In this document: piece after piece, positions 4,526-44,080 of the stretch
How positions within the stretch are numbered: position 1 is the stretch's first letter
Layout: each line of letters begins with the position of its first letter
NCBI RefSeq assembly: GCF_001887595.1
Contig: NZ_CP017480.1
Span: 930,001 to 994,000, forward strand
Source of the DNA: Luteibacter rhizovicinus DSM 16549
GTDB taxonomy: Bacteria > Pseudomonadota > Gammaproteobacteria > Xanthomonadales > Rhodanobacteraceae
Direction: 5' to 3'
DNA length: 64,000 nucleotides
Translations under genes and position numbers: made by a program
The notes under the pieces: model-generated
The model's database searches: none
What the model was told of the DNA's origin: nothing
The model's input: only the letters and a program-made list of their open reading frames with translations

Positions 4526-4933
4526 ATGAGCTTCGTCGCGGAATTCAAGAAATTCGCTCTACGCGGTAACGTCGTCGACCTGGCCGTCGGTGTCGTGATC
4601 GGCGCCGCCTTCGGCAAGATCGTGACCTCCCTGGTCGACAACATCATCATGCCGCCCATCGGCTGGCTCATTGGCGGCATCGATTTCTCCGACTGGAAGT
4701 GGGTGCTCAAGCCTGCCGATGCCGTGGCGAAGAAGGCCGAAGTGGCAATCCAGTACGGCATCTTCATCAACGTGCTGATCCAGTTCGTCATCGTCGCCAT
4801 CGCGATCTTCATCGTGGTCAAGGCGATCAACCGCCTCACCCGCCGCGAAGAAGAAGCCCCGGCCGCACCGGCGGCCGATGTCGTGCTACTCACTGAAATC
4901 CGCGATCTGCTCCGTTCGCAACAGGGTCGCTGA
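4526..4933 (+). CDS. mscL: Large-conductance mechanosensitive channel MscL
   Basis: A 135-aa inner-membrane channel that opens under extreme membrane tension during hypo-osmotic shock. The N-terminal amphipathic segment [20 protein letters not shown] leads into pore helix 1 ([17 protein letters not shown]), then a periplasmic loop with DFSDWKWVL, helix 2 (about 75-105, [20 protein letters not shown]) and the charged cytoplasmic bundle with RREEEAP. The length equals that of E. coli MscL (136). An AAGGAG ribosome site stands 9 nt before the ATG. It follows the FAH gene by 72 nt; no strong terminator was seen after it. Confidence 0.98.
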
Positions 4934-4960
4934 ACGCCCCTGCCGCTTGCGTGGACGGGT

Positions 4961-5083
4961 GAGGCGCAGAGCCTTCGGTGCCCACCCTTGCTGGGAGGCT
5001 GGGACGCTTGAGGCAAAGAGCCTTCGGTGCCCACCCTCGCTGGGGGGCTTGAGGCAAAGAGCCTTCGGTGTCCACCCTCGCTG
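4961..5083 (+). repeat. Three tandem 33-nt repeats at the left edge of element A
   Basis: Three near-identical 33-nt units of the form GAGGCAAAGAGCCTTCGG followed by TGYCCACCCTCGCTG lie at 4961-4993, 5010-5042 and 5051-5083, with gaps of 16 and 8 nt. The third unit is the left edge of the hairpin unit at 5057-5204. The first unit carries two changes (GCGCAG for CAAAG, TTG for TCG). Two copies of the same unit stand at the equivalent place in element B (43336-43408). Confidence 0.9.
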
Positions 5084-5666
5084 CTCAGACAGGTCCTCCG
5101 CGTTCCGTAAAGGAAAGGCCGCTAACGCGGCCCATGTGCCTATTTGGCCTGCGGCCGCTCCACTTGTGCGGAACTCGCCTCAAGGGTGGACACCGAAGAC
5201 TCTTCCCAACGCTGAGGTTCGTGTGGGTCGAGCCGACGAAGCAACGCCGCTTTGGCTGCGAGCTCATCGCGATCGCCAAACGGCCAGTACCCGCACGTCG
5301 GTCGCGTTCGTTCGCGCGAGGGCAGCGCGGCGGCGAGGAAGCCGCTCACCGATCCGGAATGTACTTGCTGGCACGACGGCAGAGTCGGTCAGCAGAATCG
5401 CCGTAACTGCCCGCTCCGGCGACCACACTCACACCGCCGGCTCGCCGTCGAGCTAACCGTATCGTCGTGAGAGATCTTGGTGTCCACCCTCGAGGCGAGT
5501 TCCGCACAAGTGGAGCGGCCGTAGGCCAGATAGGCACACGGGCCGCGTCAGCGGCCTTTCCTTTGCGGAACGCGGAGGACCTGTCTGAGCAGCGAGGGTG
5601 GACACCAAGGTCTCCCCGCGAGACGCCCAAGTGTACGCAGCGACGGCGACGGCGAAGCCGAGCCAG
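4961..5666. repeat. Dispersed repeat element A (inverted pair of hairpin units)
   Basis: The 4934-5832 gap holds no credible gene. It contains two 144-148 nt units in inverted orientation, 5057-5204 and 5471-5614, separated by 266 nt. Each unit is itself closed by a 22-24 bp terminal inverted stem (5057-5080 with 5181-5204; 5471-5492 with 5593-5614) and holds smaller hairpins, e.g. TTCC-GTAAA-GGAA at 5103-5115 and GGCCGC-TAAC-GCGGCC at 5117-5132. A homologous element with the same order and spacing lies at 43336-43983. Both sit between convergent genes. A MITE-like or ERIC-like family, or a structured RNA, is inferred. Confidence 0.85.
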
Positions 5667-5710
5667 CGCACAAGGCACCGCACGCACCCCGCGGAAATGC
5701 GCGACGAACC

Positions 5711-5744
5711 AAAAAAAGAGGCCGCCGATGGGGTATCGGCGGCC
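5711..5744 (-). terminator. Rho-independent terminator of the TonB-dependent receptor gene
   Basis: On the minus strand a perfect 10-bp stem (GGCCGCCGAT paired with ATCGGCGGCC, 5-nt loop) is followed by seven T residues, about 90 nt past the receptor stop codon. Confidence 0.9.
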
Positions 5745-5832
5745 TATCTGGGGAGACTCGTTGTGCCCGGGAGTTGAGCCGTCACGGGCTCGGGCACTTA
5801 TTATTGGTATTCGGGTTTAAGCAGGCTCGCTA

Positions 5833-35428: not shown

Positions 35429-35438
35429 GAGCCGATTC

Positions 35439-35467
35439 AAAAAAAACCCCGCTTTCGCGGGGTTTTT
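35439..35467. terminator. Bidirectional terminator between convergent genes
   Basis: A 7-bp GC stem (ACCCCGC with GCGGGGT) is flanked by eight A on the left and five T on the right, so it can end both the gene at 34757-35428 and gltA. Confidence 0.92.
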
Positions 35468-35472
35468 CTTTC

Positions 35473-43308: not shown

Positions 43309-43335
43309 CTTTCCTCAGCGCTTGCGTTGGGGTGT

Positions 43336-43408
43336 GAGGCGCAGAGCCTTCGGTGCCCACCCTCGCTGGGGGCTCGAGGCAAAGAGCCTTCGGTGCCCAC
43401 CCTCGCTG
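43336..43408 (+). repeat. Two tandem 33-nt repeats at the left edge of element B
   Basis: Two units, 43336-43368 and 43376-43408, match the three 33-nt units of element A (4961-5083), with a 7-nt gap. The first unit again carries GCGCAG in place of CAAAG, so the unit order is conserved between loci while one unit has been lost or gained. Confidence 0.9.
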
Positions 43409-43983
43409 CTCAGACAGGTCCTCCGCGTTTCGTACCGGAAAGGCCGCTAACGCGGCCCATGTTCTTACTTGGCCTTCGGCCGCTCCACTTGTGCGGAACT
43501 CGCCTCGAGGGTGGGCACCGAAGACTCTTCTCATCCTTGAGGTGCGTGCGGGTCGAGCCGACGAAGCAACGCCGCTTTGGCTGCTGGCTCGTCGCTAGCG
43601 CCATCGCCATCGGCATCGCCAAACGGTGACTCGGCGCGCTAGTCGCGATCGTCCGCGCGAGACAGCGCGAGACAGCGCAGCGTCGCTGAATGAGTTCACC
43701 GAGCCGGAGTGGATGTACCCGCACGACTGCCGTAGTGGCCCGCTTCGGCGACCGCACCCACGGCTCGCCGTCCCGCTAACCGTATCGTCGTGAGAGACCT
43801 TGGTGTCCACCCTCGAGGCGAGTTCCGCACAAGTGGAGCGGCCGTAGGCCAGATAGGCACACGGGCCGCGTCAGCGGCCTTTCCTATACGGAACGCGGAG
43901 GACCTGTCTGAGCAGCGAGGGTGGACACCAAGGTCTCCCCGCGAGACGCCCAAGTGTACGGAGCGATGGCGAAGCCGAGCCGC
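43336..43983. repeat. Dispersed repeat element B (inverted pair of hairpin units)
   Basis: The 43309-44108 gap holds no credible gene. It carries the same architecture as element A: unit 43382-43529 (148 nt) and inverted unit 43794-43937 (144 nt), 264 nt apart, with the same right flank to about 43983. Relative to A, the left unit's outer stem reads GGTGCCCACC with GGTGGGCACC instead of GGTGTCCACC with GGTGGACACC, a paired change. The middle of the 264-nt spacer has diverged, but its ends are conserved. Like A, it lies between convergent genes (sulfatase and groL). Confidence 0.85.
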
Positions 43984-44052
43984 CCCACGAGGTCGACGAG
44001 CGAGCCCGCGAACGAAGCACGGCACGTACGCCCGGACATGCGCGAAGAAGCC

Positions 44053-44080
44053 AAAAAAAAGACCCCGCTTGCGCGGGGCC
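44053..44080 (-). terminator. Terminator of groSL
   Basis: On the minus strand a CCCCGC/GCGGGG stem with a four-base loop is followed by eight T (seen as A at 44053-44060), about 30 nt past the groL stop. Confidence 0.92.

Follow-up and report, generated by a model that had tools for sequence, protein, structure and literature searches.

A conserved folded unit, often doubled, inside apparently non-autonomous ISL3-type elements of Luteibacter

The window, by which we mean the whole 64,000-nucleotide stretch of the Luteibacter rhizovicinus DSM 16549 chromosome analysed here, carries two intergenic loci of the same build. Element 1 lies between convergent MscL and TonB-receptor-like genes and element 2 between convergent genes for a sulfatase-domain protein and a groEL-type chaperonin, so that an earlier sequence-only reading of this DNA was right to place both between convergent genes. 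Each locus consists of partial copies of a unit end, a structured unit of about 148 nt, a spacer of about 264 nt, a second unit in inverse orientation and a common right flank (Table 1). The two unit arms are complementary over 145 nt (91% in element 1, 88% in element 2) across gaps of 266 and 264 nt respectively, and every unit is closed by an inverted repeat of 22-24 nt. Fold z-scores of the four units range from -6.2 to -8.6 (200 shuffles each), and a whole-element fold gave z = -22.9 (20 shuffles). Coordinates, arm complementarity and fold scores thus uphold the double-unit build that had been proposed.

Some details of that reading need revision. What had been described as 33-nt tandem units are incomplete repeats of that end of unit 1 which bears the closing stem; their starts lie 40-49 nt apart (49 and 41 nt in element 1, 40 nt in element 2), and they vary from element to element. 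Both loci are present where they had been placed, but element 1 reaches to the right beyond position 5666, its former limit, as far as an end-repeat. In both window copies a terminal repeat is recognisable at the right end only, the left one of element 1 being unrecognisable. A GC-rich hairpin lies between the A8 tract of element 2 and groEL. None of the nine open reading frames (100-192 aa) that cross the two elements matched Pfam at E 0.01.

Table 1. Coordinates of the two elements and associated sites in the window
Feature	Position	Strand	Remarks
Element 1, left outer part	4953..5056		Partial copies of the unit 1 closing stem
Element 1, unit 1	5057..5204	-	About 148 nt, structured; folded strand minus; covariance-model match on minus at contig 935057-935204
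Element 1, spacer	5205..5468		Evolves faster; crossing frames without Pfam match
Element 1, unit 2	5469..5616	+	Approximate limits; inverse orientation; folded strand plus
Element 1, right terminal inverted repeat	5689..5710	-	Reads GGTTCGTCGCGCATTTCCGCGG from outside; 1 mismatch in 11; A7 at 5711-5717 next
Terminator-like hairpin of right-hand gene	5719..5745	-	A/T tract adjoins element 1
Empty site	35429..35472		44-nt gap between two convergent frames; A8 at 35439-35446; filled in G019
Element 2, left outer part	43329..43381		Partial unit-end copies
Element 2, unit 1	43382..43529	-	Repeat comparison, folding, model match
Element 2, spacer	43530..43791		Between unit 1 and unit 2
Element 2, unit 2	43792..43939	+	Approximate limits; repeat comparison, folding, model match
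Element 2, right terminal inverted repeat	44031..44052	-	Reads GGCTTCTTCGCGCATGTCCGGG from outside; 1 mismatch in 11; A8 at 44053-44060 next

The family is far larger than the two copies first seen. A unit search of the genome to which the window belongs (G000; 4.77 Mb, one contig) found 20 complete pairs and one half-element, 21 in all. We then used a covariance model of the unit, built from 29 units of 13 genomes, which matched 16 of 23 genomes of the genus (which we infer to be Luteibacter; own genome counted). Three of these (G005, G011 and G021) gave one or two weak matches only, and the other seven genomes gave none. These numbers do away with the idea that only two copies exist and arose by one recent duplication. 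Of 197 sampled genomes of the family, scanned with stricter filters that missed some weak matches of the genus scan, 12 gave a match, all of them Luteibacter. In three genomes from other genera of the family (G026, G035 and G036), a BLAST search with the whole element returned one or two weak matches per genome (E 1e-4 to 1e-3). Plasmid and phage collections contained no match, and a literature search among open-licence papers turned up no description of the Luteibacter repeat. At the 3' site of groEL, two of the 23 genus genomes (G000 and G022) carry units. The same site in G015, a genome with no model match, is occupied by a diverged relative (L164:766-1444) with 22-nt terminal inverted repeats (GGTTCTTCACGC...) and two hairpin units of different build; another diverged unit was seen at locus L125 of G021.

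Rough gene calls place 23 of 40 elements between convergent, 15 between co-directional and two between divergent genes, compared with 10, 25 and 11 of the 46 gene pairs in the window. The elements are inserted in A/T tracts, often those of terminators, and such an insertion can be seen in the sister species Luteibacter sp. dw_328 (G019). Here locus L251 matches the window at about 35433, where G000 has no element. G000 reads ...GATTC-A8-CCCCGC at this empty site, while G019 reads ...GGAGC-A7, GGTTCTTCGCGGAATGCCGGGG, element, CCCGGTAATCCGCGATGAACC, A8-CCCCGC, that is, an element of about 0.8 kb with terminal inverted repeats of about 21 nt and a repeated A-tract. This is the one empty/filled pair found in all. 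Four of the 20 G019 loci (L235, L236, L241 and L244) share flanks with G000 element loci; L248 matches in part, some 3 kb away from a G000 element. The remaining comparison covered fetched G000 loci only, and the 14 of 20 G019 loci with no flank match among the long matches listed are therefore to be read as not at a G000 element, rather than as empty in G000. At the shared locus L241/L064 the element has opposite orientations in the two species, pointing to two separate insertions at one terminator.

The ends of the sister copies are well defined. Their terminal inverted repeat is about 21 nt long (GGTTC[TA]TCGCGGA..), and a single 15-nt end pattern, with up to three mismatches, was found at 21 of 38 G019 ends as against none of 190 shuffled flanks. 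Six end variants, again at no more than three mismatches in 15, recovered 41 of the 62 ends of 31 elements (19 from G019, 12 from G009), with 13 hits in 1240 shuffled flanks and one in 62 flanks read in the wrong direction. Both ends are kept in 14 of these 31 elements. Exact direct repeats of 6-9 nt flank 10 of the 14, as against 15.4% for mismatched flanks, although homopolymer tracts blur the length of such repeats and make each one weak individually; the other four have none. Over the G019 and G009 elements, A+T makes up 89% of the 8 nt outside the ends. Where ends were found, the unit sits 33-174 nt inside them. In G000 the terminal repeats are mostly decayed and the units are not: the right end is found within one mismatch in 11 at nine of 21 copies and the left within one in 12 at three of 21 (counts that carry no shuffled control), and a genome-wide search for the terminal-repeat pattern was uninformative (43 matches versus 30 for the reversed control). 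A retro-element or a terminator-targeting intron, considered since copies adjoin terminators, was dropped once terminal inverted repeats and target repeats appeared.

To which family these ends belong can be judged from other genomes. An exact scan of genome contigs with the end pattern gave at least 120 stretches, in Luteibacter, Alcanivorax, Alloalcanivorax, Duganella, Burkholderia, Frateuria and others. Nine stretches between paired ends, eight of 1.3-1.6 kb and one of 2.7 kb, enclose a frame of 389-411 aa. Five of the enclosed proteins were tested, and each proved to be an ISL3 transposase (E 1e-64 to 2e-67) with Zn-ribbon, HTH and DDE domains, although one Zn-ribbon fell below the cut-off. 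Target duplication in ISL3 elements is about 8 bp; L302, L320, L323 and L346 have exact A/T direct repeats of 8 nt on either side, L348 and L392 lie between homopolymers, L335 stops at a contig end, and no direct repeats were seen at L358 and L380. ISL3 genes with similar ends occur in Alcanivorax, Alloalcanivorax, Duganella and L. yeojuensis. Because similar ends enclose ISL3 transposase genes in these genomes, the Luteibacter elements are, on sequence grounds, probably non-autonomous ISL3-type elements of the MITE/MIC class, sharing terminal inverted repeats with autonomous members, duplicating their target and holding no transposase gene of their own. Together with the empty/filled site, this bears out the non-autonomous mobile element put forward among the first readings, and both window loci are very probably decayed copies of it. 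In a separate case, a 3.3-kb stretch of Burkholderia sp. MS389 (L347:1645-4915) lies between ISL3-type ends with an exact A/T direct repeat (AAAAAAGA) and carries oxidoreductase and methyltransferase genes; its two longest frames are no transposase, and it looks like a mobile insertion cassette.

Within the genus, L. yeojuensis (G013) is the sole genome with a real ISL3 transposase among the 16 that bear the unit. Its gene lies at two contig ends (L398 and L421), with matching ends and T-tracts at both. G020 holds a 28.8-bit ISL3 remnant with a stop, and neither G000 nor G019 has a convincing ISL3 transposase (profile matches of 23 bits). The weak match in G000 is a fatty-acid desaturase, and we took the matches of 21-27 bits in most genus genomes to be spurious, this being the one that was checked. 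As G000 and G019 have no convincing transposase, the mover can be judged from other genomes only, and it would be an ISL3 transposase acting in trans. The unit model finds no match in the L. yeojuensis ISL3 copy (two contig pieces), so the unit seems not to be needed for transposition as such. When the model was run on 110 of the at least 120 stretches with ISL3-type ends (the ten left out being loci of sp. dw_328), Luteibacter loci alone matched.

A different vehicle would be a REP/REPIN-type repeat, in which overgrown REP hairpins form inverted doublets spread by a RAYT, a Y1 tyrosine transposase. Hairpin units in inverted doublets, found genus-wide and rarely between divergent genes, would suit this reading, as would the one Y1_Tnp gene in G000. 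What follows that gene, however, is a short REP-like pair of the ordinary kind (GTGGGAGCCGC...) and not the unit, and Y1_Tnp occurs in 22 of the 23 genus genomes, including all seven without a unit-model match. The elements moreover have long terminal inverted repeats and direct repeats, neither of which REPs are known to have. As both the distribution and the flanks of Y1_Tnp fail to fit the unit, we rejected the REP/RAYT reading as very improbable. The REP-like pair itself lies at L079 (about 4655-4738; 2290 kb), after the single Y1_Tnp (RAYT-like) gene of G000, and a pair of the same type was seen at the groEL 3' site of G006.

The arrangement of the units is regular. All 117 unit neighbours less than 2,880 nt apart are ordered minus-then-plus of the folded strand, that is, facing outward; 13 further neighbours within 8 kb are ordered otherwise, the nearest 2,882 nt apart. 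This count took in G000, G001, G003, G008, G009, G010, G022 and four pair-bearing contigs of G013, with G002, G004, G005, G006, G007, G011, G019 and G021 left out, and the matches of some partner units were weak (34-60 bits) in G001, G003, G008 and G010. The usual spacer differs by species: about 215 nt in G022, 240 in G000, 410 or 614 in G003, 560 in G010 and mostly 340-510 in G001. The 12 units found in G009 stand singly and not in pairs, in elements of 308-364 bp of which four have both ends, and such single-unit elements keep the unit plus about 105 nt on one side.

Large spacers have taken in guests. IS110-type transposases were identified in three of them (L136, L138 and L141, all tested), and the proteins of L136 and L141 recur in L140 and L142; the L140 spacer also holds an IS3-type gene, and two large G008 spacers are presumably of IS30 type. 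In G003, the same 1132-bp IS110-family element has entered L141 and L142 at one and the same point, about 60 nt ahead of unit 2, and it is possible that this site is the natural target of a bridge-RNA-guided element. Other contents are a Tlde1-domain gene with a small downstream frame in L116 of G001, where little of the ordinary spacer is left; a DUF4365 protein and its 386-aa partner between the units of L114; and a DUF6624 protein in L135, with one below the cut-off in L115. A gene-cassette system, first suggested by the large spacers, is unsupported: among the 33 of 38 G001 pairs that were available, ordinary spacers are homologous to one another, and each large spacer reflects either an insertion (IS110-type, IS3-type) or replacement of most of its sequence.

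We now turn to the unit itself. Its core of about 145 nt comprises a closing stem of 22-24 bp, an inner stem and two hairpins, and 99.3% of 1160 cells are paired on the chosen strand. Twelve of 40 pairs changed on both sides, as against 4.8 +/- 1.3 in shuffles (0 of 500 as high), and the covariation score is 0.183 as against 0.026-0.050 for slid structures, a comparison that favours the structure over its slid versions, since it was derived from the same alignment on which it was scored. Compensatory change, the criterion for a structured RNA, thus exceeds both shuffled and slid controls. Wobble pairs are also asymmetric: G-U cells outnumber A-C cells on the folded strand by 60 to 2, or 31 to 2 once an invariant U-G pair is removed, and this bias picks one strand, minus for unit 1 and plus for unit 2. 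The loops hardly vary. Between G000 copies, units are 95-96% alike and spacers 84%. Compensatory change, the one-strand bias, near-invariant loops and better conservation than either spacer or terminal repeats together indicate that a folded single strand, most likely of RNA, is under selection. The structured RNA suggested by the sequence-only reading stands in this form, as selection on a fold and not as expression.

Part of the conservation could have another source. At four loci, sharing a locus makes the G000 and G019 copies no more similar than copies from different loci, and G000 copies resemble one another more than they do their same-locus counterparts in G019, so copies have been homogenised within genomes or re-inserted. 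Such homogenisation could explain some of the likeness among units. Taken to its limit, the unit would have no function of its own and would owe its conservation to recent copying bursts and gene conversion only, in keeping with the four loci and with the finding that the two units within a G000 element resemble each other to the same degree as units taken from different elements (0.895 in both cases). Yet the spacers of the same G000 elements diverge more (0.84 as against 0.95-0.96), compensatory changes and a G-U bias over 29 units from 13 genomes would not be expected from copying alone, and the unit is the very part that single-unit elements keep. We regard an explanation by copying alone as unlikely.

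Whether the folded strand is RNA is a separate question. The unit might instead act as single-stranded DNA, a strand-specific hairpin read in replication or by a transposase, for which attC sites and the ends of IS200/IS605 are precedents. DNA hairpins tolerate G-T wobble as well, so the G-U bias does not part the two, and the shared insertion point of the IS110-family element in G003 indicates that another enzyme reads this DNA. Against this, no single-strand enzyme goes with the units (Y1_Tnp alone was tested), the unit lies inside the element ends, and ISL3 transposases are DDE enzymes that act on double-stranded ends; on balance a single-stranded DNA role seems improbable to us, though not remotely so. 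We give very little credence to a duplex site, either protein-binding or chromosome-organising, the latter having been among the first suggestions. A multi-copy, intergenic, conserved inverted sequence might well be such a site, but its positions differ between sister species, seven of the 23 genus genomes give no match, and 13 of the 21 G000 copies fall within two stretches totalling about 0.53 Mb (by coordinates only, with no significance figure). The strand asymmetry would also be unexpected for a palindrome bound as duplex, and nothing was found in support of a chromosome-organising role.

Returning to selection on a folded strand that is most likely RNA, we can sketch how such an element might work. 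The non-autonomous element would be moved in trans by an ISL3 transposase into A/T tracts. On transcripts that read through the element, its unit would fold into a structured RNA and would be recognised through its conserved loops, and this RNA would limit or process transcription across the insertion, whereby gene 3' ends would become tolerable insertion sites. No promoter-like site was found in the element and its place behind terminators should lower read-through, both of which speak against the RNA step, and we offer the role of the unit in this scheme as a tentative proposal that falls somewhat short of an even chance. Slightly more doubtful still is a broader reading in which the unit may represent a new class of transposon-borne structured RNA. 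It would be the payload of a non-autonomous element of DDE type (ISL3), kept by selection on loops and stems independently of the terminal repeats and doubled head-to-head in most species that bear it, and it would either protect element and host at terminators or recruit the machinery of spread.

Small elements that lack a transposase are commonly taken for little more than a pair of ends, and here an internal folded unit is the best-kept part. It changes in a compensatory manner and outlasts the terminal repeats, and 15 of the 16 unit-bearing genomes show no convincing matching transposase. Many intergenic repeats of Luteibacter genomes can now also be assigned to a family whose ends are recognisable. 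If the unit is transcribed, one-unit and two-unit sister species and at least one empty site would make a clean system, and the question would be why a DNA transposon carries a structured RNA.

Set against known systems, the Luteibacter element has most in common with ISL3-type MITEs and MICs: its ends are of ISL3 type, its direct repeats are A/T, the window copies have no transposase and a few copies hold other genes between their units. It differs in that much of the element consists of one or two conserved, structured units of about 145 nt, and other small ISL3-ended elements (L293, L297, L303 and L371) have no unit match. The earlier view that no named family applies therefore fails for the vehicle, an apparent ISL3-type MITE/MIC; for the unit it stands within the scope of Rfam. 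Rfam 15 gave no match in the whole window, and over 4900-5720 three matches at E 0.33 to 3.6, none above a gathering threshold. By that measure no Rfam family fits the unit, and its internal position, covariation and frequent doubling set the element apart from known MITEs.

In MITEs of the Correia, ERIC, BOX/RUP/SPRITE and Coxiella QMITE2 type, the stem comes mainly from the terminal repeats. The Luteibacter element is set apart from them by its internal, loop-conserved, covarying unit that can be doubled. Those MITEs are described as having structured or processed transcripts, their stem-loop transcripts are proposed or shown to alter mRNA, and they resemble the Luteibacter element in being intergenic and partly at gene 3' ends (PMC10969869). 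Hairpin units set as inverted doublets outside genes are a likeness to REP, BIME and REPIN sequences, from which the Luteibacter unit differs in lying inside an element with terminal repeats and in having no link to a RAYT. The unit is also several times longer than a REP. A further point of contact is offered by its IS110-type guests, as REPs are targets of IS110-type elements (PMC1525189).
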